A DNA stretch of 11,713 nucleotides. Origin: Dehalococcoidia bacterium (GTDB lineage: Bacteria; Chloroflexota; Dehalococcoidia; JAUSJJ01). A program made the position numbers and the translations under genes. Below, in pieces: positions 1 to 11,713 of this stretch; position 1 is the first letter of the stretch; each line of letters starts with the position of its first letter. The notes beneath the pieces are model-generated. The model was not told the origin of the DNA. It did not search any database and was given only the letters and a program-made list of their open reading frames with translations. The stretch covers positions 1 through 11,713 of the forward strand of contig JAUSJJ010000257.1 of NCBI GenBank assembly GCA_030647705.1. Direction: 5' to 3'.

Positions 1-4
1 CCTA

Positions 5-16
5 ATACCAGGAGGA
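5..16 (+). promoter_or_regulatory. Ribosome binding site of first binding protein, shared 12-mer
   Basis: The 12-mer ATACCAGGAGGA contains a full Shine-Dalgarno core (AGGAGG at 10-15), 13 bases ahead of the ATG at 29. That gap is a little long. The identical 12-mer occurs at 1368-1379 ahead of the second binding-protein gene, which suggests that the tandem duplication carried the translation leader with it. Confidence 0.6.
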
Positions 17-28
17 TAACCAGGGCAT

Positions 29-1285
29 ATGTTCACAAAGAAACTAAGCGCAATGGCGGCTATCCTGCTTGCGGCTGTCTTCGTTGCCGGATCTGCCTGC
101 AGCCCTGCTGCGACTCCTACTCCGGTGATAGTGACCCCGACCCCAGGACCTACCCCGACCGCTGCCGCAGCGGCGGAGACACTGCTCATCGGCAACCTCA
201 GCATTCTGAGCGGCGCAGGCACCGGGTACGGTTTCCCTGCTTCGCGTGGACTGGAGAAGGGCGTGGAGCTCTGGAACGGCAAGGGTGGAGTGGTGGCTGG
301 TGGCAAGAGATACATGCTCAAGCTGGACACCTACGATTGGGGCTACACTGCCGACTCAGGCCGCACCGCCGCCGAGAAATCCATGAACGCGGGTGCCAAG
401 ATCATCTTCGGTGTTGGCACGGCGCCCTCATCGGGCGCTCAGCAGGTGACCGATCCCAACAAGGTGCTCTTGTTCGTGGCATCGATCGCTGACGCCCTAG
501 TAGATCAGAAATATCCGTATACCTTCCGCAACCTCAACGGCGCCGGCGATGCCTTCGCGCCTGCTATGGACTACGTGTGGAAGATGTATCCCAACAACAG
601 GAAGCTCTTTGCTACTGCCTGGAACGATGCTACCGGCAAGCTGTCCTGGGACACCTGGAAGCCGGCCCTGGAGAAGATGGGCTGGAGCAAGATAGACTTT
701 CAGTTCTACGAGCCGGGTACCACCGACTTCGCTCCATTCGTGAACAGCTACCTCGTGCCCTCGGGGGCTGATGTTCTCGGTATGATCACACGGACAGGCG
801 GTGAGACCGGGCAATTGGTCAAGGCCGCTCGCCAGTTCGGGTACAAGGGCGTCATCGTATGGGCTGCCGGTGGAGGCGGAGGAGTCCAGGAGCTCTCGAT
901 AGCCGGCGACCTGGCTGACGGCGTGGTGGTGAACCAGGAATGGGACTGGGAGGGCCAGTTTGTGAATCCGGCGGGCCAGGAAGTTGCCCGGGAGTACATT
1001 CGGAAATATGGCGTGAACCCTTCGGTACATCTGATCAATGCTCTTGACGGTCTGAGGATGCTGGAGGCGGCTCTGGTGAAGGCGGGAACGGCGGACACCA
1101 CAGTCCTGAAGAACACGTTCCCCACTGTAGAGTGGGACAGCTACCATGGCGGAAAAGGCAAGCTTTGGGAGGTCAATGGTCGTCTTGCTACCTTCCTCTA
1201 CGGCATGCCGGTCTCGGTCTATAATGCCAAGGACAAGAAGCTGGTGAACGTGGGCTTTGGGTTGCCGCCAAGGTTGCAGAAGTAG
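29..1285 (+). CDS. Branched-chain amino acid-type ABC transporter substrate-binding lipoprotein (copy 1)
   Basis: This is the extracytoplasmic solute receptor of a Liv/HAAT-type ABC importer (Peripla_BP_6-like, 418 aa). It captures a solute outside the membrane and delivers it to the LivH/LivM permeases encoded downstream. The N-terminus has Lys-Lys, a hydrophobic stretch at about 7-23 and a cysteine at 24 (VAGSAC, a relaxed lipobox), so a lipid anchor is likely. A Pro/Thr-rich linker (about residues 29-50) leads into the mature domain at ETLLIGNLSILSG, the first strand and ligand loop of this fold. The length matches the family. The start is the only ATG placed behind the AGGAGG at 10-15 and gives a proper signal peptide. 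The next gene encodes a paralogue about two thirds identical by eye. The ligand cannot be predicted: family members bind amino acids, amides, urea, aromatic acids and other solutes. Confidence 0.93.
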   Translation: MFTKKLSAMAAILLAAVFVAGSACSPAATPTPVIVTPTPGPTPTAAAAAETLLIGNLSILSGAGTGYGFPASRGLEKGVELWNGKGGVVAGGKRYMLKLDTYDWGYTADSGRTAAEKSMNAGAKIIFGVGTAPSSGAQQVTDPNKVLLFVASIADALVDQKYPYTFRNLNGAGDAFAPAMDYVWKMYPNNRKLFATAWNDATGKLSWDTWKPALEKMGWSKIDFQFYEPGTTDFAPFVNSYLVPSGADVLGMITRTGGETGQLVKAARQFGYKGVIVWAAGGGGGVQELSIAGDLADGVVVNQEWDWEGQFVNPAGQEVAREYIRKYGVNPSVHLINALDGLRMLEAALVKAGTADTTVLKNTFPTVEWDSYHGGKGKLWEVNGRLATFLYGMPVSVYNAKDKKLVNVGFGLPPRLQK

Positions 1286-1322
1286 CATATCAGAGCAACC
1301 AGTTTCTATCACAGGGGCTACG

Positions 1323-1356
1323 GGGCTATGGCTGCTGCGAGCAGCAGCCATAGCCC
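1323..1356 (+). terminator. Perfect 16-bp inverted repeat between the two binding-protein genes
   Basis: Bases 1323-1338 are exactly complementary to 1341-1356 (arm GGGCTATGGCTGCTGC). Sterically this gives a 15-bp stem with a four-base loop (CGAG). It begins 37 bases after the stop of the first binding-protein gene and ends 34 bases before the next ATG. The downstream flank is CCCAAAACATAAATA, without a T tract, so a classic intrinsic terminator is not supported. An mRNA-end stabiliser or partial attenuator, leaving more message for the first receptor, fits the position. The ATG at 1328 lies inside the stem, which argues against it as a start codon. Confidence 0.6.
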
Positions 1357-1367
1357 AAAACATAAAT

Positions 1368-1379
1368 ATACCAGGAGGA
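1368..1379 (+). promoter_or_regulatory. Ribosome binding site deciding the start of the second binding protein
   Basis: ATACCAGGAGGA, identical to bases 5-16, lies 11 bases ahead of the ATG at 1391. It favours 1391 over the in-frame upstream ATG at 1328. That longer reading would add a 21-residue hydrophilic Ser/Arg-rich segment in front of the signal peptide. Confidence 0.65.
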
Positions 1380-1390
1380 GCGAGGAAAAC

Positions 1391-2656
1391 ATGGCGAGAC
1401 GGAGACTATTGGTGATTGCAGCCGCGGTGCTGGCGGTGGTGATGGTGGTGGCTGGGACCACATGCACCTCGGGGCCGACCCCCACTCCCGTAGTGGTGGT
1501 GGCTACCCCAACGGCCGGGCCCACCCCCACGACAGCAATCGGCACTGAGACGTTGCTCATCGGCAACCTGAGCATTCTCAGCGGCGCCGGCACTGGCTAC
1601 GGGTTCTCGGCCGCGCGTGGAGTAGAACGAGGAATCGAACTATGGAACGATGCTGGTGGATTAGTGGTCGGCGGCAAGAGGTACATGCTCAAGATAGACA
1701 CCTACGACTGGGGCTATACCGCTGACTCGGGACGGACTGCCGCTGAAAAGGCCATCAATGACGGCTGCAAGATCATCTTCGGCGTAGGCACCGCCAATAC
1801 CGCCGGCGCGCAGCAGACCACCGAGCCTAACAAGGTTCTGCTGCTGGCTCAGACCGCGTCCAACGATCTGGTGACGACTAAATTCCCCTACACTTTCCGA
1901 ATCCTCATGGGCGCGGATGGTCTGTATTCTCCGGGCATGGACTACGTTTGGGACAAGTACCCTGACAAGCGTAAACTGTTTGTCACCGCGTGGAACGATG
2001 CCACGGGCAAACTGGTGTGGGAGACCTGGAAGCCTCTGGTGAATGCGATGGGCTGGAGCAAGGTAGACTTCCAGTACTATGAGCCGGGGACGACCGATTT
2101 CGCCCCGTTCATCAACAGCTACCTTCTGCCTGCCAACCCGGACGTGTTCGCCCTGGTCAGCCGGACAGGTGAAACCGGGCTGCTGATCAAGGCCGCCCGC
2201 CAGTTTGGCTACAAAGGCATCATCTACTGGGCAGCCGGCGGCGGCAGCGTGCCAGAGCTGCAGATTGCCGGCGACCTGGCAGAAGGCGTTATCGTCAACC
2301 AGGAGTGGGACTGGAAGGGACAGTTCGTCCCGGAGGCGGCCAAGCCGGAAGCTTTGAGTTACTTAAGCAGGTACGGCAGCAATCCCACGGTGCACTTGAT
2401 CACTGCCCTCGATGGGTTGAGGATGCTGGCTGCCGCAATGAAGAAGGCCAACAGCGTTGACACCACTGCCATCAGGGATACTCTGCCTACGATCGAGTGG
2501 GACAGCTACTGGGGTGGCAAAGGCAAACTGTATCCGGTGAAGGACCGCCCGGGCGCGACCATGAACTTCGGTATGCCCGTCTCGGTGTGCGATTCCAAGA
2601 ACACGGCTCTGGTGAACGTCGGCTTCGGCCTGCCGCCGGCCTTGAAGACGAAATAG
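1391..2656 (+). CDS. Branched-chain amino acid-type ABC transporter substrate-binding lipoprotein (copy 2)
   Basis: This second solute receptor of the same importer has 421 aa from the chosen start. The N-terminus MARRR, a hydrophobic run (about 6-21) and a cysteine at 25 (AGTTC) look like a lipoprotein signal, though Thr at -1 and -2 is atypical for a lipobox. A Pro/Thr-rich linker follows, then the same mature start as copy 1 (ETLLIGNLSILSG). Long blocks match copy 1 almost exactly, including DTYDWGYTADSGRTAAEK, TAWNDATGKL and EPGTTDFAPF. The two differ most around the segment after GVGTA and at the following hydrophobic segment (VASIADAL in copy 1, AQTASNDL here). In this fold those regions lie near the ligand cleft, so a different or broader ligand range is plausible. 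Most likely a tandem duplication followed by divergence, with both copies intact. Confidence 0.93.
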   Translation: MARRRLLVIAAAVLAVVMVVAGTTCTSGPTPTPVVVVATPTAGPTPTTAIGTETLLIGNLSILSGAGTGYGFSAARGVERGIELWNDAGGLVVGGKRYMLKIDTYDWGYTADSGRTAAEKAINDGCKIIFGVGTANTAGAQQTTEPNKVLLLAQTASNDLVTTKFPYTFRILMGADGLYSPGMDYVWDKYPDKRKLFVTAWNDATGKLVWETWKPLVNAMGWSKVDFQYYEPGTTDFAPFINSYLLPANPDVFALVSRTGETGLLIKAARQFGYKGIIYWAAGGGSVPELQIAGDLAEGVIVNQEWDWKGQFVPEAAKPEALSYLSRYGSNPTVHLITALDGLRMLAAAMKKANSVDTTAIRDTLPTIEWDSYWGGKGKLYPVKDRPGATMNFGMPVSVCDSKNTALVNVGFGLPPALKTK

Positions 2657-2679
2657 GCTCTCAAGCGATTAGCAAGTAG

Positions 2680-2725
2680 ATCCTGTCATCCCGTTGCCCA
2701 CTTGCGGGCGGCGGGATGACAGGGT
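2680..2725 (+). terminator. Long hairpin after the second binding-protein gene
   Basis: Bases 2682-2693 (CCTGTCATCCCG) are perfectly complementary to 2712-2723. The pairing continues inward through two G-T wobbles and four more Watson-Crick pairs (2696-2699 with 2706-2709), and outward through one T-G wobble and an A-T pair. This makes an approximately 20-bp stem with a six-base loop (ACTTGC). It starts 24 bases after the stop codon and 160 bases before the next gene, livH. No T run follows (GCAACCAATCG), so it is either a weak terminator or an mRNA-stabilising element separating the abundant receptors from the scarcer permeases. A dispersed palindromic repeat is an alternative. Confidence 0.6.
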
Positions 2726-2839
2726 GCAACCAATCGTTGAAAGGCCGCATCTGGCCTGCAGGTGGATGCAGCCACGGCTTGGTGCGACTGGGGGGCAGTG
2801 GCAACGGATCATTTCGAACGCTAGCTGAGAGGTTGGGAA

Positions 2840-3700
2840 ATGGCTGCTTATACGCAAGCGCTCGTTAACGGCATCATGCTTGGCGCCATCTACGTGGTGG
2901 TGGCGCTGGGGCTGACGCTCGTGTTCGGCATGATGCACATCGTGAACTTCGCCCACGGCGAGATTTATATGCTGGGCGCCTTCGTGCTCTGGACCTTCCA
3001 AGTGGCACTGGGCGTGAACTACTTCCTGGCGACGATCATCACGGTAGTCGTTCTGTTCATACTGGGAATGCTCTTGGAACTGATCTTCTTCTCGCGATTT
3101 CCGGGCAGGGCGGGTCTGTTCAAGAGTCTGATTATCTGTCTGGGGCTCGCGGCGGTTTTACCCAACACGGTGTCTCTAATCTACAGTCCTTTCAGCAAGA
3201 ACATTCCTTCCGTGTTCACCAACAGCCTTCAGTTTGCGGGGCTCTTCGTCCCCAGCGAAAGGCTGCTGGTCATCCTGTTTTCGGTGGTGTTTGTGGGGGG
3301 CCTGTTCCTGTTCTTGAAGAGGACCAGGACGGGACAGGCCATGATTGCCGTGGAGCAGGACGGCGAGGCTGCTGAGATGCAGGGGGTGAGCATCAGCAGA
3401 GTAAGGTTGTACTGCATGGGTATTGGCGCGGCGCTGGCCGGGGGTGCGGCCAGTTTCGTGGCGCCGGTGCTGGGCGCCAGCCCGTGGATGGGCGGCGATA
3501 TGATCATGAACTCTTTCAACATCATCATCATCGGGGGCATGGGCAGCCTGCCCGGGGCTGTGCTCGGCGGGCTCATTCTGGGCCTGGCGCAGAGCTTCGG
3601 CCCCATGTGGGTTTCCCCGCCCATGGTGAACCTGCTCGTCTTCTTCATGATCATCTTGATACTGCTGGTAAAACCGACAGGACTGCTCGGACATGCTTAA
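2840..3700 (+). CDS. livH: Branched-chain amino acid-type ABC transporter permease, LivH family
   Basis: This is one of two inner-membrane channel subunits of the HAAT/Liv-type ABC importer (286 aa, normal for LivH). It is hydrophobic throughout, with likely membrane helices at about 8-30, 42-55, 60-82, 95-115, 140-160, 190-212, 225-250 and 262-279. The N-terminal signature GLTLVFGMMHIVNFAHGE (about 24-41) is characteristic of LivH. The segment around 170-184 (AVEQDGEAAEMQGV) matches the cytoplasmic coupling loop that contacts the ATPase, and GGMGSLPGAVLGG (about 232-244) is the conserved late-helix motif. The start has GAGAGG seven bases upstream. The 3' end overlaps livM by 8 bp, indicating translational coupling. 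The symbol is given by family. The transported solute is not necessarily a branched-chain amino acid. Confidence 0.94.
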   Translation: MAAYTQALVNGIMLGAIYVVVALGLTLVFGMMHIVNFAHGEIYMLGAFVLWTFQVALGVNYFLATIITVVVLFILGMLLELIFFSRFPGRAGLFKSLIICLGLAAVLPNTVSLIYSPFSKNIPSVFTNSLQFAGLFVPSERLLVILFSVVFVGGLFLFLKRTRTGQAMIAVEQDGEAAEMQGVSISRVRLYCMGIGAALAGGAASFVAPVLGASPWMGGDMIMNSFNIIIIGGMGSLPGAVLGGLILGLAQSFGPMWVSPPMVNLLVFFMIILILLVKPTGLLGHA

Positions 3701-4703
3701 AGAAAAGAAAACGCTCCAATTCCTGGCCATAGCGGTAATAGTGGTATTAGCGTTCCTGGTGCCGGCGTTTATCAAGGAGCGCTACCTGCTTCACGTGTTT
3801 ATCACCATCTTCTATTTCGTCATCCTGGCCGCCAGCCTGCTGCTCATCATGATGGTGGGCCAGATGAGCCTGGCGCATGCCGGGTTCGTGGCTATCGGCG
3901 CCTACACCGCAGGCATCGTGACCAGAGACTTGGGCTGGTCGCTCTGGGTGGCCATGCCGCTGGCGGGGCTCACTTCCGGGGTCATTGGCGCCCTGGTGGG
4001 TTTCCCCACGCTCAGGCTCCGGGGCACCTACTTCCTGCTGGTGACCTTTGCCTTCGGCTCGCTGGTGACGCTATTCTTCGGAAACATCTTGGACAACGTC
4101 TTCGGGGGCGTTGTCGGTTTCAGGAACATACCGGCGCCGACCTTTGAATTGGGCTCTTTCAAGGTGGACTTCATCGCCAGCAGGGTCCCGTACTACTACC
4201 TGGCGCTGGTGCTGGCGCTGATCACGGTACTGGCCATGTACCGACTGCGCAATTCGCGCCTGGGCGTGATCTTCAACTCTATCGCCCAGGCGGACGGCCT
4301 GGCGGAGCACTGTGGGGTAAACCTGATGAAATACAAGGTGATGGCCTTTTCCATCGCGTGTATCTTCCCGGGCATGGCCGGCGCCTTCTATGCGGGCTAT
4401 CACTTCGTGGTGTTCCCCGCCGACTTCACCTTCAAGGAGTCACTAACCACGCTTATCCAGATGATTGTGGGGGGTACCGGGTCCCTGGCCGGGCCCGTGG
4501 TTGGCGCTGCAGGACTAACGATTGTGCAGGAGCTCCTGACAGCGCTTCCGTACCAGAAGGCGATCATCTTCGGCGGGATTCTGATCGTAGTCGTTATGTT
4601 CCTGCCTGGTGGACTGGTTGGCGTGCCGGGGCAGGTAGTCTCAATCTTCAGGAAATTCCGCCGTCCTGAGCGGGTCAATGTGGAGACGAAACCCAAAGAG
4701 TAA
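3693..4703 (+). CDS. livM: Branched-chain amino acid-type ABC transporter permease, LivM family
   Basis: This is the partner permease of LivH (336 aa, typical of LivM). After a short basic N-terminus come hydrophobic segments from about residue 8. The LivM hallmark GQMSLAHAGFVAIGAYTAG lies at about 56-74. The coupling-loop region is near 194-215 (FNSIAQADGLAEHCGVNLMKY). The conserved MIVGGTGSLAGPVVGA lies at about 257-272, and the last helix at about 288-305. The C-terminal tail (about 318-336) is charged and cytoplasmic. Translation probably starts by coupling: its ATG lies inside the last codons of livH, in a different frame. No livG or livF ATPase gene follows, although in many operons they come directly after livM. 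They may be upstream of this window or elsewhere in the genome. Confidence 0.94.
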   Translation: MLKEKKTLQFLAIAVIVVLAFLVPAFIKERYLLHVFITIFYFVILAASLLLIMMVGQMSLAHAGFVAIGAYTAGIVTRDLGWSLWVAMPLAGLTSGVIGALVGFPTLRLRGTYFLLVTFAFGSLVTLFFGNILDNVFGGVVGFRNIPAPTFELGSFKVDFIASRVPYYYLALVLALITVLAMYRLRNSRLGVIFNSIAQADGLAEHCGVNLMKYKVMAFSIACIFPGMAGAFYAGYHFVVFPADFTFKESLTTLIQMIVGGTGSLAGPVVGAAGLTIVQELLTALPYQKAIIFGGILIVVVMFLPGGLVGVPGQVVSIFRKFRRPERVNVETKPKE

Positions 4704-4999: not shown

Positions 5000-7219
5000 A
5001 TGAGCGTGAATCCTGAGGCTACCGAGCTTGAACAAGAGAAGATAATCCCTACCATGTGCGCCAGCCACTGCGGTGGCTCTTGCCTGCTCAAGGTGCATGT
5101 CAAGGGCGGCGTGATCACCAGGATAGAGACCGATGACGGCGCGGAGCCTCAGATCAGGGGTTGCTGGAGAGGCCGTTCATACCGGCAGAGGGTATATGCC
5201 CCGGACCGGATACTGTATCCGCTGAAGCGAGTTGGCGCCCGAGGGGAAGGCAAGTTCGAACGCATCTCTTGGGATGAGGCTCTGACCGCGACCGCCAACG
5301 AGATCAAGCGAGTCAGAGATACCTACGGCCCGGCTTCGATCATCTTTGTGCCTATGGGCGGAGACCTGGGCATAATCCACGGCGCCCATCTTTTTGACCG
5401 CCTGCTGTGCATGGCCGGCGGCCATACCAGGACATGGGGCGTGACCTCGTTCGGCCAGGGCATGTTCTCTTCCCTGGCAACCTACGGGACGATTCACTGC
5501 AGCAACAGCCGTGACGACCTTCTCAACACCCGCTTCGTGCTGATGTGGGGCTTCGACCCCGGCAAGTGTATCAACGGCCCCAATACTGCCTGGTACCTGG
5601 CTCAGGTCAGGGACAAAGGCGTACGCATAGTTTCGATCGATCCCCGGCTGGGCGATACTGCAGCCGCGGTTTCCGACCAGTGGGTCGCCATAAGACCGAG
5701 CACGGATGCCGCCATGGCCATCGCCATGGCCTACGTCATCGTCTCGGAGAACCTGCAGGACCAGGCTTTTATCGACAAGTACACCGTCGGCTTCGACAAG
5801 TACCGTGACTATCTGCTGGGCAAGGAAGACGGCGTGGCCAAGACGCCTGCCTGGGCTGAGCGCATCACCGGCGTCCCTGCTGAGACTACCGCCTCTCTTG
5901 CCCGCCAGTACGCCACGATCAAGCCTGCCGCGCTGCTGGCTGGCATCGGCCCCGGACGGACTGCGGTTGGGGAGATGTTCCATCGCGCCGTTGCGGTTCT
6001 GGCGGCAATCACCGGAAACGTCGGCGTTCATGGTGGCGATGCGGCGGCCAGGGCCTGGGAGTCGCTCATCGGCGGCCTGCCCTACAAGGTCCTTCCGATA
6101 GTCACCCGCGTCATGCCCAGCACCAGCAACCCTGTGGAAAGGGGTTTCCCGGTAGCTCAGAATACGCTGCCTACCTATCGGGGGCCCAGGGTGCACTACA
6201 ACAAGGTGGCTGACGCTATTCTGAGAGGCAAGGCCGGCGGCTACTACTCGGACTACAAGATGCTGTTCACGGCCAACTGCAACTACCTCAACGCCATGCC
6301 CAACAGCAACAAGATCATCGAGGCGCTAAAGAAGGTCGAATCGATCATTATGGTCGAGCAGTTCATGACGACTTCGGCGAAGTACGCCGATATCATATTG
6401 CCCACTAACACCTACATGGAGCGCAACGACTACACCCCGGGCGCCTCGACTTGGTTCCACGGCATCCAGAACAAGATCATCGAACCTCTGGGAGAGTCCA
6501 GGTCGCATTTCGACATCGCGACGGCGCTGGCCGATAAGATGGGAATCACCGGCTACAACGATAAGACCGAAGCCCAGTGGCTGCAGCAGATATTGACCAT
6601 GGCGGAGGTCAAAGACGTCGACAAGCTGAAGAGAGACGGGATCCTGAGGATCGAGCGTGACGAGCCCTACGTGGCGTTCAAGGACTTCATCGAAGACCCG
6701 CAGAAGAACCAGTTGTCCACGGCATCCGGGAAGATAGAAATATATTCCCAGACGATGGCCGCCTGGAACAATCCCAAGCTGCCGCCCGTGCCTCAATGGG
6801 TCGAGCCATTCGAGACCCTGACCGACCCACTGGCCAAGAAGTACCCGCTGCAACTGATCACGCCCCACGGCAAGCGTCGCGCCCTGGGACAGTTCGAGAC
6901 GCTCCCCTGGCTCAAGGAGCTGATGCCGGAGATGGTCTGGCTGAGCATCGCCGATGCCAAAGCCCGGGGCATCAGAGACGGAGACATGATCAAGGTGTTC
7001 AACGACCGCGGAGTCATAATGCTCCCGGTCAAGGTGACCCGCCGGATGATGCCTGGCGTGGTGCAGGTTGAGTCAGGCGCGTGGCATAACTTCGATGAGA
7101 ACGGCGTTGACCGCGGCGGCAACGCCAACACGCTGCTGGGGGACGACCTTTCCATCGGAGGGCATTTCCCCTATAACACCTGCCTGGTCGAGGTCCAGAA
7201 GGTTGAGGAGGAGCAGTGA
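5000..7219 (+). CDS. DmsA-like molybdopterin oxidoreductase catalytic subunit, cytoplasmic form
   Basis: This is the catalytic subunit of a DMSO-reductase-superfamily enzyme (739 aa; DmsA is somewhat longer with its leader). It is predicted to bind a bis-MGD molybdenum cofactor and one 4Fe-4S cluster. The N-terminal motif is C20-x3-C24-x3-C28-x26-C55, followed by WRGRSYRQRVYAPDR and RVGARGEGKFERISWDEA, very close to E. coli DmsA as I recall it. Aligned on GG...YG blocks, Ser150 (TWGVTSFGQG) falls on the DmsA Mo-ligand serine. ADIILP...E occurs near 462-473. The C-terminal molybdopterin-binding domain begins near 614, with FNDRG and a later ESGAW. No Tat leader is present, unlike exported DmsA. 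The stop codon overlaps the start of the iron-sulfur flavoprotein gene, its likely electron partner. The substrate is unknown: S- or N-oxide reduction is one option, but another reaction of this superfamily is equally possible. Confidence 0.9.
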   Translation: MSVNPEATELEQEKIIPTMCASHCGGSCLLKVHVKGGVITRIETDDGAEPQIRGCWRGRSYRQRVYAPDRILYPLKRVGARGEGKFERISWDEALTATANEIKRVRDTYGPASIIFVPMGGDLGIIHGAHLFDRLLCMAGGHTRTWGVTSFGQGMFSSLATYGTIHCSNSRDDLLNTRFVLMWGFDPGKCINGPNTAWYLAQVRDKGVRIVSIDPRLGDTAAAVSDQWVAIRPSTDAAMAIAMAYVIVSENLQDQAFIDKYTVGFDKYRDYLLGKEDGVAKTPAWAERITGVPAETTASLARQYATIKPAALLAGIGPGRTAVGEMFHRAVAVLAAITGNVGVHGGDAAARAWESLIGGLPYKVLPIVTRVMPSTSNPVERGFPVAQNTLPTYRGPRVHYNKVADAILRGKAGGYYSDYKMLFTANCNYLNAMPNSNKIIEALKKVESIIMVEQFMTTSAKYADIILPTNTYMERNDYTPGASTWFHGIQNKIIEPLGESRSHFDIATALADKMGITGYNDKTEAQWLQQILTMAEVKDVDKLKRDGILRIERDEPYVAFKDFIEDPQKNQLSTASGKIEIYSQTMAAWNNPKLPPVPQWVEPFETLTDPLAKKYPLQLITPHGKRRALGQFETLPWLKELMPEMVWLSIADAKARGIRDGDMIKVFNDRGVIMLPVKVTRRMMPGVVQVESGAWHNFDENGVDRGGNANTLLGDDLSIGGHFPYNTCLVEVQKVEEEQ
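7206..7213 (+). promoter_or_regulatory. Ribosome binding site choosing ATG 7219 over GTG 7216
   Basis: AGGAGGAG lies inside the last codons of the molybdoenzyme gene. The ATG at 7219 is seven bases past AGGAGG and shares its A with the TGA stop (TGATG), a usual arrangement for translational coupling. The in-frame GTG at 7216 would add only one methionine. Confidence 0.7.
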
Positions 7220-9267
7220 TGCAGCTAGCTTTTTCTTTTGACCAGACCCGCTGCGTGGGCTGCTACACATGCGGCGTGGCCTGCAAGGACTGGCACGATA
7301 TCCCCGCCGGCCCGGCACACTGGAGGCGGGTGTCACACATGGAGGAGGGGGAGTTCCCCAACCCGTTTGTAGCCTATCTATCCGCTGCCTGCAACCACTG
7401 CGTGAACCCTATCTGCGCCACAGTTTGCCCCGCAACGGCCATCACCAAGCGCGAGCAGGACGGCGTGGTACTGGTGGACCAGCAGAAGTGCCGGGAGGCT
7501 GCCCACTGCGGCATCATATCCGGCTACGAGGTCGGGCCCGCGCCGACCATGGGGGAGAGAAGGTCTCCCTGTCAGGTGACCTGTCCGGCCCATTTGAAGG
7601 TGCCGGGCTACATTGCGCTCATTTCCAAGGGCCTGTTCGATGAGGCCCTCGACCTGATTCGGGTGAACATGCCGTTGCCTTCGGTCTGCGGCCGCATCTG
7701 CACCCACCCTTGTGAAACCGTATGCAAGCGCCAGGACCTGGACGAGCCGATAGCCATTTCCGCTCTGAGGCGGTTCGCCGCGGACAACGCCACAAATCAT
7801 GTTTCGCCTATGCCCGTGCCCAGGACCAAGCAGGGCAAAGTGGCCATCATCGGATCGGGTCCTGCCGGCCTGGCCGCCGCGTATGACCTGGTGAGGATGG
7901 GATACGGCGTCACCGTCTTCGAAGCGCTGCCGGTAGCTGGCGGCATGCTCGCCGTGGGCATACCCGACTATCGATTGCCCAAGGACATCCTGAAGCGGGA
8001 GATCGATTACATCGCCGGGCTGGGTGTGGAGATCAAGACCAACAGCCCGATAGGCTCTGCGTTCACCCTGCATGAACTGGCGCAACAAGGCTACGGGGCC
8101 ACGTTCATCGCCACTGGCTGCCACCGGAGCATCAAGCCGGATGTGCCCGGCACTGAACTTTCCGGCACTCTGGATGGCGTCTCCTTCCTCCGCGACTTAA
8201 ACCTGGGCAAACAGGTCAAGGTCGGGGAGAAGGTTGCCGTAATCGGTGGAGGCAACGTGGCCATCGACGCTGTGCGGACGGCGCTTCGCCTTGGCGCCAA
8301 GGAGGCATTCATCGTGTACCGGCGCACTCGCAAGGAAATGCCGGCCACCGATGAAGAGATCAAGCAGGCTGAGGAGGAAGGCGTCAAGTTCAACTACCGG
8401 CTCGTTCCCACGCGTATCGTTGGCGTGAACGGCAAAGTAACCGGGCTGGAGTGCGCCAGCGTCCGTTCCATCAGGTCAGGCAAGCAAGGCAAGGCGAGCG
8501 TCAGCATCGTCGATGGATCTGAGCGTGTACTTGCCGCCGACACGGTGATCTTCGCCATAGGGCAGGCGCCGGACCTGGACTTTGTGAAGGCGATCGGCGG
8601 CTTGAAGCTGACCGAAAGAGGCACTATCGAAGTGGACCCGGTGACCATGGAGACGAGCCGTCCCGGCATCTTCGCTGGCGGCGACGCAGTATCCGGCGCT
8701 GCTACCGCCATCGAGGCCATAGCCGCCGGACAGCGGGCCGCTTCACACATTCGCAAGTTCATCGAGGGCGAGGTGGTGAGTGGTGAGAGGCCCGCAACCG
8801 AGATTAGGGGCTCGGACATCAAGGTGAAGATACCCGCCGATATCGTCAGTGCGCCGCGCCAGGTTGCCAGGACTCTTCCCGTCGACGGCCGTCTCGTGAG
8901 CTTCGGCGAGGTCACGGCCGGGTTCGATCGCGAGGCGGCCATGGCTGAGGCGAGCAGATGCCTGAACTGCGCGGGCTCGCTTTGCCGCGACGCATGCCCT
9001 TACGGCGTGCCTCAGTTCGGCGCCGAAGAGAACGCCAAGATGCAGATGTGCAACTTCTGCGTTGACCGTCTTGCTGAGAACAAGCTGCCTGTTTGTGTTG
9101 GCTCCTGTCCTACGCGGGCGCTCGATTCCGGGCCTGTCGAGGAGATGAGGGCCAAGCACGGCGACGGTAAAGAAGCAGCGGGCCATGCCTTCTATTGGGT
9201 CACCGAGGCGCCGACCGTAGTGAAGCCAAAAGATGGTTTTCAGGTCGTGCCCAACGTGCGAAAGTAG
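7219..9267 (+). CDS. Composite iron-sulfur flavoprotein: DmsB-like ferredoxin split by a GltD-like NAD(P)H/FAD module
   Basis: This is the predicted electron-transfer subunit of the molybdoenzyme (682 aa). Residues 1-100 match the first half of DmsB: cluster motifs C12-x2-C15-x2-C18-x3-C22 and C58-x2-C61-x4-C66-x3-C70-P, then VLVDQQKC. Residues about 103-575 form a glutamate-synthase-small-subunit-like module. It has an N-terminal cysteine domain (C118, C122, C157, C161, C165, C169, with CGRICTHPCETVC), an FAD dinucleotide fold GSGPAG (212-217), an NAD(P)H fold GGGNVA (343-348) with VYRRTRKEMPA, and the FAD-closing GGD (487-489). Residues about 578-682 resume DmsB: C581-x2-C584-x4-C589-x3-C593-PYGVPQF, then C611-x2-C614-x11-C626-x3-C630-P and ALDSGP. 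All four DmsB cluster motifs are therefore present across the split. No transmembrane segment or Tat signal is seen. The inferred role is electron exchange between NAD(P)H and the molybdenum subunit. Domain calls are firm; the physiological direction is unknown. Confidence 0.88.
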   Translation: MQLAFSFDQTRCVGCYTCGVACKDWHDIPAGPAHWRRVSHMEEGEFPNPFVAYLSAACNHCVNPICATVCPATAITKREQDGVVLVDQQKCREAAHCGIISGYEVGPAPTMGERRSPCQVTCPAHLKVPGYIALISKGLFDEALDLIRVNMPLPSVCGRICTHPCETVCKRQDLDEPIAISALRRFAADNATNHVSPMPVPRTKQGKVAIIGSGPAGLAAAYDLVRMGYGVTVFEALPVAGGMLAVGIPDYRLPKDILKREIDYIAGLGVEIKTNSPIGSAFTLHELAQQGYGATFIATGCHRSIKPDVPGTELSGTLDGVSFLRDLNLGKQVKVGEKVAVIGGGNVAIDAVRTALRLGAKEAFIVYRRTRKEMPATDEEIKQAEEEGVKFNYRLVPTRIVGVNGKVTGLECASVRSIRSGKQGKASVSIVDGSERVLAADTVIFAIGQAPDLDFVKAIGGLKLTERGTIEVDPVTMETSRPGIFAGGDAVSGAATAIEAIAAGQRAASHIRKFIEGEVVSGERPATEIRGSDIKVKIPADIVSAPRQVARTLPVDGRLVSFGEVTAGFDREAAMAEASRCLNCAGSLCRDACPYGVPQFGAEENAKMQMCNFCVDRLAENKLPVCVGSCPTRALDSGPVEEMRAKHGDGKEAAGHAFYWVTEAPTVVKPKDGFQVVPNVRK

Positions 9268-9400: not shown

Positions 9401-9877
9401 ATGAGCAGCAAGTTCGGGACAGCGAAGGTAAGCCAGATCGGCGTTGTAGTCAAAGACAGGGATAAGACCATCGAGTACTTCTCCAAGGTCCTCGGCATTG
9501 GTCCGTGGAGCACATTAGACAGCACATACGAGAAGGACGAAGTGATGACGGGGCAAGGGCGGTTCACCCTCAAAGTGGCCTTTGCCGACCTGGGAGGCCT
9601 GGAGATAGAGCTTATCGAGGTTGGCGAAGGCCATCCCATACATGCCGATTTCCTGAAGGCCCATGGAGAGGGACTGCATCACGTGGCTTACGATGTTACT
9701 GATTTGAAGCAGAGAGTGGCGGACCTGGAAAAGCAGGGCGTCAAGCCGCTCCAGTACGCCATCAAGAAAGACGGCGACCGCGGACACGCCTACCTGGCGA
9801 CCGACAAGGTCGGGGGCGTGGTCGTGGAACTGGTGCAGCGGTCGACCAAGAGCGCTTTCCGCACCCCGGGTCGGTAG
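9401..9877 (+). CDS. VOC-fold protein, methylmalonyl-CoA epimerase/glyoxalase-like
   Basis: This is a 158-aa protein of the vicinal-oxygen-chelate superfamily, whose members bind a divalent metal and catalyse epimerisation, isomerisation or C-C/C-O cleavage. Two beta-alpha-beta-beta-beta repeats are visible: VSQIGVVVKDRDKTIEYFSKVLGIGPW (about 10-36) to LEIELIEV, and GLHHVAYDVTDL (91-102) to VVVELVQR. The closest resemblance is to methylmalonyl-CoA epimerase (the LHHVAY motif, overall size, GHPIHADFL loop). By motif position the metal site would be Q12, E70, H94 and E143. In the epimerase the first ligand is normally His, so Gln12 is a departure. The protein is cytoplasmic with no signal. It lies 133 bases after the redox operon and ahead of an ene-reductase-type gene, which suggests catabolism of an acyl-CoA or cyclic compound. 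Epimerase activity itself is not assured. Confidence 0.8.
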   Translation: MSSKFGTAKVSQIGVVVKDRDKTIEYFSKVLGIGPWSTLDSTYEKDEVMTGQGRFTLKVAFADLGGLEIELIEVGEGHPIHADFLKAHGEGLHHVAYDVTDLKQRVADLEKQGVKPLQYAIKKDGDRGHAYLATDKVGGVVVELVQRSTKSAFRTPGR

Positions 9878-10061: not shown

Positions 10062-10091
10062 TGACCAAGACTTTTCTCTGGAAGGTAACTA

Positions 10092-11713
10092 ATGGCTGAC
10101 CGATTCAACAAACTATTTTCACCGATCAAAGTGGGCCGGATGCAACTGCGGAACCGCATCTGCTCGTTGCCTCACGGGGGGAATTTCCCCGAGGGCAGCA
10201 TCAAGGGTTTGCCCGTGGCCATGCCCGGCCCCAAACATGCCGCATACTGGGAGGAGCGGGCCCGTGGCGGCGCTGCATGGATAGGCACCCAGGCCACCGC
10301 CGTTTCTCTTATTCCCGGCCAGAACCAGTTCAAGTACAAGGAGCTTCTGGGGTACTACAAGAACGTCACGGAATCTATCCACCGGCATGGCGCCTGTTGT
10401 ACCACAGAGATCATGAATATGGGTTCTGAGGTTGCAGGGGCTTCCAATGACGTCATCGATTTCCCCACCCCTTATGCTCCCTCGGCGTTCCCTTCTCACC
10501 ACTGCTGGCGCATTCCTCATGAGCTCACCGCCGATGAGATACATGAGTTCGTGGGCCTGTATGCCGAGGCGGCCAAGGTCATACGGGAGGGCGGGTTCGA
10601 CGGTGTTGAGGTGCACGTAGCCAACGGCTATCTGCTGAACGAGTTCCTGTCGCCTCTGACCAACCAGCGTACCGATGAATATGGAGGCAGCCTGGAGAAC
10701 AGACTCCGTTTCCCTGTAGAGGTAATCCGGGCGGTGCGACAGGCTGTCGGCGATGACTACTCGGTGGGCATCAGGGTCTCAGGAGACGAGTTCTGCGAGG
10801 GCGGCTACACGCTCGAGGACATGGTCGAGATGGCGCCGCTTCTGGTCAAGGCAGGGAATCTGGATTGGGTTGACGTGACGGTGGGTGTCTTCCGCTCGGC
10901 GGCAACGCTCTGCACCAGCATGTACTTCCCGGTAGGCAACTTCGTCTACTGTGCTGCAGCCATCAAGCAGGCGGTGGACATCCCGGTGATGTGCGTGGGC
11001 AGGATCAATGACCCGGAGCAGGCCGAGCAGATTCTGGAGAACAACCAGGCCGACCTGATCGGCACGAACCGGGCGCTGATCTGCGACTCGCAGTGGCCGA
11101 ACAAGGCCAGGGAGGGTCGGCTGGAGGAGATCAGGAAGTGCCTGGGCTGCAACGAAGGGTGCTGGGGACGCCGAAGGCTGGCCACGGGGATGACCTGCGC
11201 CATCAATCCGGTAGTGGGCAGAGAGACGGAGCCGGGTTGGCTCGACCTGGAGCCGGCGAAAGTAAAGAAGAGGGTGATGGTGATAGGCGGTGGCCCGGCA
11301 GGTCTGGAAGCGGCGCGTGTGGCCAAGCTGCGCGGCCATGAGGTATCGCTGTATGAAAAAGGCTCAGAACTCGGAGGCATGACCAACGTGGCTGCCAAGG
11401 CGCCCGGCCGGCTGGACTTTGCCGAGGTGGGGCGGTACTACACCTATCAGATGAAACAGGCAGGGGTGGACGTTCACCTGAATACCGAAGTCACCGCGGA
11501 CGACGTGAGGCGCCTGAAGCCCGAGGCGGTTGTCGTTGCCACAGGCTCCATCCCGTTGCCTTTGACCATATACAAGATATCCGGCGCCGACCAGAGCAAC
11601 GTGGTGCAGGTGAAAGACGTCCTGACGGGCAAAGTCCAGGTGGGCAAGAAGGTGCTGGTGGTGGATGAGGACCAGACCATCCAGGCAGCCAGCACCGCTG
11701 ACTTTCTGGCATC
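10092..11713 (+). CDS. Old-Yellow-Enzyme/2,4-dienoyl-CoA-reductase-type flavoprotein (partial, 3' end outside window)
   Basis: The first 540 codons of an NADH:flavin oxidoreductase of the FadH/trimethylamine-dehydrogenase type are present. Full-length relatives are about 640-680 aa, so the last NAD(P)/FAD part is missing at the window edge. Residues 1-345 form the FMN TIM barrel: NKLFSPIKVGRMQLRNRI at the start, the hallmark H175-VANGY180-LLNEFLSPLTNQRTDEYGGSLENR, and VGRINDP near 302. The 4Fe-4S motif C350-x2-C353-x3-C357-x11-C369 has the same spacing as E. coli FadH. A dinucleotide fold GGGPAG (399-404) opens the C-terminal reductase domain. The start ATG has GGAAGG six bases upstream. Tyr180 matches the FadH active-site tyrosine, but the FadH catalytic His aligns with Phe267 by eye, so true dienoyl-CoA reductase activity is doubtful. 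Reduction of another enone or dehydrogenation of an amine or steroid is possible. Confidence 0.9.
   Translation, partial: MADRFNKLFSPIKVGRMQLRNRICSLPHGGNFPEGSIKGLPVAMPGPKHAAYWEERARGGAAWIGTQATAVSLIPGQNQFKYKELLGYYKNVTESIHRHGACCTTEIMNMGSEVAGASNDVIDFPTPYAPSAFPSHHCWRIPHELTADEIHEFVGLYAEAAKVIREGGFDGVEVHVANGYLLNEFLSPLTNQRTDEYGGSLENRLRFPVEVIRAVRQAVGDDYSVGIRVSGDEFCEGGYTLEDMVEMAPLLVKAGNLDWVDVTVGVFRSAATLCTSMYFPVGNFVYCAAAIKQAVDIPVMCVGRINDPEQAEQILENNQADLIGTNRALICDSQWPNKAREGRLEEIRKCLGCNEGCWGRRRLATGMTCAINPVVGRETEPGWLDLEPAKVKKRVMVIGGGPAGLEAARVAKLRGHEVSLYEKGSELGGMTNVAAKAPGRLDFAEVGRYYTYQMKQAGVDVHLNTEVTADDVRRLKPEAVVVATGSIPLPLTIYKISGADQSNVVQVKDVLTGKVQVGKKVLVVDEDQTIQAASTADFLA

Follow-up and report, generated by a model that had tools for sequence, protein, structure and literature searches.

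The window analysed here is one entire contig (C285, 11,713 nucleotides) of a Dehalococcoidia bacterium whose assembled genome comprises 1.59 Mb and is 70% complete. At its centre, the gene of a DmsA-like catalytic subunit is followed by the gene of a 682-residue protein (P0001), whose ATG overlaps the stop codon of the former (TGATG). Upstream, window positions 29–4703 encode a tandem pair of periplasmic binding proteins as well as two permeases of LivH/LivM type, all of branched-chain-type ABC transporter character; no ATPase was found among the eight window ORFs scanned with Pfam. Downstream, positions 9401–9877 encode a VOC protein resembling methylmalonyl-CoA epimerase (57.7 bits against a cut-off of 115), and positions 10089–11713 an OYE/FadH-like flavoenzyme (TIGR03997, 528.6 bits, cut-off 793, with BaiCD as the next match) that is cut by the contig end. 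The features of the gene pair are collected in Table 1.

Table 1. Features of the DmsA-like gene and of P0001 in window coordinates, with the basis of each assignment.
Feature	Position	Strand	Basis
DmsA-like catalytic subunit, 739 aa	5000..7219	+	Pfam Molybdopterin, Molydop_binding, Molybdop_Fe4S4
P0001, nested DmsB-GltD-DmsB, 682 aa	7219..9267	+	ORF intact
DmsB domain, N-terminal part, residues 1-98	7219..7512	+	TIGR02951 profile 1-103, 98.7 bits
Cys motif I (C12, C15, C18, C22)	7252..7284	+	kept in 119-120 of 120 aligned proteins
Cys motif II (C58, C61, C66, C70)	7390..7428	+	kept in 119-120 of 120
Host Cys motif III, first half (C91-x5-C97)	7489..7509	+	120 of 120; C-x5-C in 102 of 120 unsplit sisters
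Insert, circularly permuted GltD module, residues 99-585	7513..8973	+	PRK12771 109-636, 482.9 bits; permutation test
GltD Fe-S Cys C118, C122, C161, C165, C169	7570..7725	+	alignment; Pfam Fer4_20
R184, aligned with StnC cluster-ligand Lys K170	7768..7770	+	K in 110, R in 10 of 120
FAD-binding GSGPAG, residues 212-217	7852..7869	+	motif
NAD(P)-binding GGGNVA, residues 343-348	8245..8262	+	motif
YRR, residues 367-369, read as NADPH-type dyad	8317..8325	+	6 of 120 keep YRR; E369 in 113 of 120
Canonical GltD opening segment (FxEV..EAxRCLxC), here C-terminal end of module, residues 546-585, with C581 and C584	8854..8973	+	
DmsB domain, C-terminal part, residues 586-682	8974..9264	+	TIGR02951 profile 102-161, 69.8 bits
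Host Cys motif III, second half (C589-x3-C593 P)	8983..8997	+	120 of 120
Cys motif IV (C611, C614, C626, C630)	9049..9108	+	120 of 120

P0001 is confirmed, at the level of sequence profiles and of the predicted structure, as a single four-cluster ferredoxin of DmsB type with a GltD module in its interior. An earlier sequence-only reading had proposed a nested order instead of an end-to-end fusion, and it was right: residues 1–98 joined to 586–682 match TIGR02951 over its full length (1–161 of 161) in one stretch at 166.2 bits, and the two halves abut at profile positions 102/103. Both as found (157.5 bits) and joined, the protein scores below the TIGR02951 cut-off of 214.1. Once the insert is removed, the four 4-Cys motifs stand in DmsB order. 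The eight cysteines of motifs I and II lie at residues 12–70, as noted before, and the PYG.PQ and ALD.GP signatures occur as PYGVPQ and ALDSGP. The joined ends furthermore retrieve natural unsplit sisters, the closest being 65–67% identical over 86–94% of the query among the matches listed. The 120 unsplit sisters listed are 182–217 residues long, and some carry the source name "anaerobic dimethyl sulfoxide reductase subunit B".

These sisters also locate the cut. Motif III reads C-x5-C-x2/3-C-x3-CP in 102 of the 120 listed, and since the first pair in P0001 is C91-x5-C97 and the second C589-x3-C593, the insertion lies within motif III, between the second and third cysteine of the host motif. 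The sequence-only reading had placed motif IV at C611–C630, which stands, but its motif III (C581–C593) is a composite, in which C581 and C584 belong to GltD's own EAxRCLxC segment. Whether both ends fold as one DmsB domain was addressed with an AF2 model built without cofactors (pLDDT 86, pTM 0.88; two of the five models were poorer, with pLDDT 72). PsrB (2vpw_B) superposes across it, with 177 of 193 residues at 2.4 Å over model range 1..676, and ArrB does so with 177 residues over 1..675. The domain search proposed earlier, run with Pfam, returned Fer4_11 (best at 51–97, in two stretches), Fer4_20 (116–193) and Pyr_redox_2 (207–504).

The insert is itself rearranged. A canonical GltD chain, as seen in 4ylf_B and 5vj7_A, opens with FxEV...EAxRCLxCxxxxCxxxCP. 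The module of P0001 has PCQVTCPAH at its opening and the FxEV...EAxRCLxC segment at its close, so that the canonical N-terminal RCxxCxxxxCxxxCP is not present in one piece, being split and permuted. When residues 546–585 are moved ahead of 115–530, TIGR01316 is matched over 1–449 of 449 at 381.2 bits (unpermuted 36–449, 350.6 bits) and TIGR01318 over 7–465 at 312.4 bits (unpermuted 49–465, 274.1 bits). In solved NfnABC and StnC chains the order matches that of P0001, the alignment extending through the closing RCLxC. FAD and NAD(P) motifs and two 4Fe-4S motifs of GltD type are all carried; the proposal of a GltD-like module with FAD and NAD(P)H folds therefore holds, but the usual order does not. 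Among NCBIfam models PRK12771 is the best match to P0001, below its cut-off of 516 bits.

The homologue sample consisted of P0001 and the 119 best of 8,000 candidates at E ≤ 0.001, and these 119 are 51–87% identical to P0001 over 96–100% of the query and all share the nested order. Twenty-three cysteines are conserved in 119 or 120 of the 120 proteins, with gaps only in P0094 and P0008, and the full nested spacing pattern fits 116 (the misses being P0008, P0026, P0044 and P0094), so the nested cysteine pattern is no chance result. C157 is variable, being Cys in 99 of the 120 aligned proteins. An assembly artefact or frameshift was considered and is ruled out by the identical order in the 119 other homologues listed. 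In a survey of the genome class, 14 of 197 genomes matched at E ≤ 1e-150, and three of these matches (own genome, G032 and G100) span residues 1 or 2 to at least 671. A neighbourhood sample of 80 kept loci from 395 relatives contained 17 nested loci besides the window, originating from Dehalococcoidia/Dehalococcoidales, Anaerolinea, Lokiarchaeia/Lokiarchaeota, Deltaproteobacteria, Pseudomonadales and Hydrogenedentota.

The assignment of cysteines to clusters can be approached from the right-hand junction of the module in other hosts. All rows above the score limit of the module comparison were used, giving 66 GltD rows with hosts other than DmsB; they include 62 of the 63 remaining kept loci and a stand-alone GltD in L039, together with L002 and L003. 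In 63 of the 66 the junction reads RCxxC-x2-CxxCxxCxxxC, so that a full 4-Cys motif comes after the RCxxC of the module; the three rows lacking the complete pattern are L003, L057 and the 465-residue GltD in L039. The 18 DmsB hosts, by comparison, have a split host motif in which C91/C97 are still conserved. Taken together, these two observations make it most likely, as far as sequence comparison goes, that C581/C584 belong with the GltD cluster and C91/C97 with that of DmsB. A hint against that pairing comes from four rows of the structural comparison, in which the superposition on canonical GltD chains starts at C97 of the model, close to the first cluster cysteine of those chains. The spacing from C584 to C589 is four residues in 116 of 116 pattern matches, by which the GltD and DmsB clusters would be tied closely. 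Under either pairing, the 23 conserved cysteines and K/R184 would supply 24 ligands, enough for six clusters. Published work on StnC reports that K170, the counterpart of residue 184, ligates the FAD-proximal cluster, that Arg at this place keeps half of the activity, and that NfnB has Glu (PMC10482914).

No description of a DmsB or DmsA with a nested GltD was found in the literature searched, at title and abstract level and with most subscription journals outside it, and the passages of DMSO-reductase-family papers checked for fusions contained no such case. In this respect the novelty suspected in the sequence-only reading stands, but a GltD that interrupts a ferredoxin domain is already known from type III HdrA, and one placed inside another chain from StnC. 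In type III HdrA from ANME-1 and Bathyarchaeota, GltD interrupts a ferredoxin domain (PMC12054007, PMC9012536). Two separate insertions of GltD are described, with the suggestion that they keep ferredoxin out and let NADH in (PMC12054007). As in P0001, GltD lies within the ferredoxin domain, and the published reading is that of a ferredoxin site turned into an NAD(P)H port. The HdrA-type examples in this comparison share the permuted module and its junctions with P0001. They differ in the host, which is HdrA with a complete 4-Cys motif beside the module, whereas in P0001 the cut goes through the DmsB motif and a molybdoenzyme is the partner. No HdrA model appears among the 25 of 78 NCBIfam matches listed for P0001, in which GltD is surrounded by the DmsB halves and not by an HdrA FAD/thioredoxin-reductase-like domain. 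HdrA models match three scanned non-DmsB hosts: in L022 the match stops at profile position 302 before GltD and restarts at 293 after it, and in L028 and L058 the post-GltD stretch starts at positions 284 and 277. The own genome also holds, on contig C2 (L002, ORF 1141–3366), a protein read from its sequence as HdrA-like, with a permuted GltD after the first ferredoxin motif, and on C98 (L003, ORF 1462–3666, minus strand) a chain read likewise as NuoG-like, followed by a GltD ending in EADRCLRC.

Other relatives are more distant in design. GltD also sits inside StnC (PMC10482914). Unlike P0001, StnC and NfnA of NfnABC (8oh5, 9bov, 9n5u) have a NuoG-like host with an inactive FdhF domain and no DmsB, and StnC feeds a HydBC-type bifurcating unit. 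AegA and YgfT place the ferredoxin first and GltD second, end to end (PMC8097209); like P0001 they combine ferredoxin and GltD in one chain and are linked in published work to a molybdoenzyme, formate dehydrogenase H. A fusion of this type was rejected for P0001, which scores 289 bits against a cut-off of 1003 and 242.7 against 1154. The PRK12771 family, and DsrL with it, resembles P0001 in having cysteine motifs C-terminal to the GltD core, but its model starts at residue 109 and leaves the N-terminal DmsB half uncovered. DmsB, PsrB and ArrB share the four-motif fold and the DmsA-type partner; in contrast to P0001 they have neither insert nor flavin, and their electrons travel via a quinone-linked membrane subunit (PMC8076601).

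TIGR02166 is first among the NCBIfam matches listed for the DmsA-like subunit (646.7 bits, cut-off 777.7), and DMSO and TMAO reductases are its first PDB matches. FS0-type cysteines are present at C20, C24, C28 and C55, and S150 aligns with S147 of 1eu1 (DorA), which we take to be a Mo ligand. A single-sequence fold, predicted with no alignment, reached pLDDT 35.8 and was set aside. A twin-arginine motif is absent from the start of this subunit and from the first 60 residues of the neighbouring DmsA-like proteins as called, among which L007 lacks the N-terminus and several starts are uncertain. The expectation that the nested gene might always neighbour a DmsA-like gene was nearly borne out: in 16 of the 17 other nested loci such a gene adjoins, with gaps of −40 to +153 bp. 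In the exception (L020) the gene starts 65 bp from the contig start, with no DmsA-like gene in 2.4 kb downstream.

Membrane partners were sought at the same loci. Judged by hydropathy, no membrane-helix-rich gene lies directly beside a nested pair in the nested loci, where flanks are short in L005, L007, L010, L011, L016, L018 and L020; helix-rich ORFs occur farther off or on the other strand in L008, L009, L011, L016, L017, L019 and L021. The membrane proteins among the window ORFs scanned are BPD_transp_2 permeases, with no DmsC/NrfD-type protein beside the dmsAB pair. PF04976 (DmsC) had no match in the 70%-complete own genome, with a positive E. coli control, and PF03916 (NrfD) had two, on contigs C58 and C286. 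The first lies between a four-motif ferredoxin that starts with an RREF-type sequence, which precedes it, and a cytochrome-c-like ORF, which follows, and the second is upstream of a HypF-like ORF (names read from sequence). Each NrfD-like gene lies in another gene group, but might conceivably supply P0001 with a partner in trans. The genome contains five or six strong DmsA-like paralogues (C285, C199, C269, C216, C294 and C151); those on C294 and C151 are incomplete matches at the ends of their contigs, perhaps two pieces of a single gene. The DmsA-like genes of the window, C269 and C151 lie near an OYE/FadH-like gene, and among the five other paralogue contigs only C216 has a ferredoxin match, a weak one.

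We propose, with a probability of about 0.7, that P0001 and the DmsA-like protein form a soluble molybdoenzyme of two subunits in the cytoplasm, linked to NAD(P)H, with P0001 as the subunit for electron transfer and its module in place of the quinone-linked membrane subunit. The earlier view of an electron subunit with a built-in pyridine-nucleotide port is thereby supported, the port being predicted. NADPH would reduce the FAD of the GltD module, and electrons would pass from FAD through the two GltD clusters, reach the motif II/III cluster of DmsB over the four residues of the bridge C584-xxxx-C589, and run along the DmsB chain to FS0 and then the Mo centre, the likeliest direction being reduction of an oxidised substrate at Mo. 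In membrane-bound relatives motif III ligates the distal cluster, at the quinol/haem end, as known from work on DmsB and NarH. An insertion in the motif of this very cluster suggests that the module replaces DmsC, so that an enzyme once linked to quinol would now be linked to NAD(P)H. In ethylbenzene dehydrogenase, electrons pass from FS0 to FS4 in order and then to haem (PMC8840923), and in PsrABC the quinone site is described as close to a PsrB cluster (PMC8076601). Together with the distal position of motif III, this electron order would put the cassette at the docking place of the membrane subunit.

The same architecture could also run in reverse, with the Mo subunit oxidising (e.g., hydroxylating) a substrate and the GltD module passing the electrons to NAD(P)+. 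The neighbours look catabolic (OYE/FadH-like reductase and VOC downstream, branched-chain-type ABC genes upstream), ORFs read from sequence as enoyl-CoA hydratase-like lie in the fetched flanks of 6 of the 17 other nested loci, and hydroxylases, ethylbenzene dehydrogenase among them, belong to the wider family. The DmsA-like subunit, however, scores best with S- and N-oxide reductases and has Ser at the Mo-ligand position, as in DorA, so that we consider reverse flow unlikely, if worth serious attention.

A further question is the identity of the donor. P0001 retains YRR, and NADPH is favoured for this reason; the same triplet is kept in only 6 of the 120 aligned proteins, so the donor may vary across the family. 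The 113 proteins with E369 may use NADH. That most of the family uses a donor other than NADPH, either NADH or another reduced protein that docks, is suggested by these two counts and by extra conserved cysteines in the NAD(P) domain at positions 351, 367 and 412 (114, 112 and 112 of 120). Against it, P0001 keeps both YRR and GGGNVA, and the FAD motif is kept, 113 of 120 rows being counted in its six commonest forms. An acidic residue at a 369-type site usually favours NADH, and this too was counted against the alternative, which we judge decidedly unlikely. Most nested relatives have CLE or similar instead of YRR, and a further cysteine of the NAD(P) domain, at position 490, is conserved in 40 of 120. 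A regular expression found YRR in 28 of the 66 GltD rows of other hosts, a count that was set aside with 36 rows unreadable.

Flavin bifurcation of the kind performed by NfnB is disfavoured by the alignments and appears very improbable: R252, kept in 118 of 120, aligns with StnC R239 and thus with NfnB R201 near the flavin, but where NfnB has a Glu that ligates the FAD-proximal cluster, the nested proteins have K/R, like the non-bifurcating StnC, and the gene pair includes no partner flavoprotein gene. Hardly credible at all is a PRK12771-like GltD with two independent ferredoxins fused to its ends and no single split domain, since the one-stretch PRK12771 match (109–636), which implies that members of that family can carry cysteine motifs after GltD, is outweighed by the contiguous DmsB profile, the unsplit sisters and the joint superposition on PsrB and ArrB, by which, given the predicted model, separate end ferredoxins would be ruled out.

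If P0001 is indeed the NAD(P)H-linked electron subunit, a single insertion at a precise point would have rewired a four-cluster molybdoenzyme subunit to a new electron donor. More generally, and with moderate confidence, the permuted NAD(P)H-FAD-2[4Fe-4S] cassette can be regarded as a portable power socket that enters at a cysteine motif and connects its own cluster with that of the host across a few residues; in DmsB a single [4Fe-4S] cluster would take its ligands from either side of the insert of about 490 residues, and quinol would give way to direct use of NAD(P)H with no membrane subunit. The module ends PCxxxCPA and EAxRCLxC are common to DmsB and HdrA hosts, and entry would have occurred beside the host motif in HdrA and inside it in DmsB. 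On this proposal, uncultured Chloroflexota, Lokiarchaeia and others should contain soluble enzymes of the DMSO-reductase type that are linked to NAD(P)H. Such proteins carry general names in the few cases where a source name was listed, e.g., "FAD-dependent oxidoreductase"; annotation could benefit from the junction rules, which might also open the part played by each cluster to direct test.

As to its origin, a single entry of the cassette into DmsB is probable, with the permuted GltD modules that also interrupt HdrA as the common source. The module tree places the 18 DmsB-hosted rows on one side of a branch with SH-aLRT 80, or 91 with L022 added. The DmsB tree, built from 60 of the 120 nested rows and 62 unsplit ones (60 of 120 plus those of L007 and L021), has a single misplaced row, the unsplit P0121 among the nested side, and its likelihood is better when the nested rows are held together (AU p 0.96). 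Split and unsplit forms also occur side by side. In two Lokiarchaeia loci (L007 and L021) the nested DmsB and its DmsA lie beside an unsplit DmsB and DmsA on the opposite strand. Contig C253 of the own genome breaks off (L004, L111) within another DmsB-like N-terminus, which shares 59% identity with residues 1–98 of P0001 and whose motif III reads C-x5-C-GGLC, like that of the unsplit sisters.
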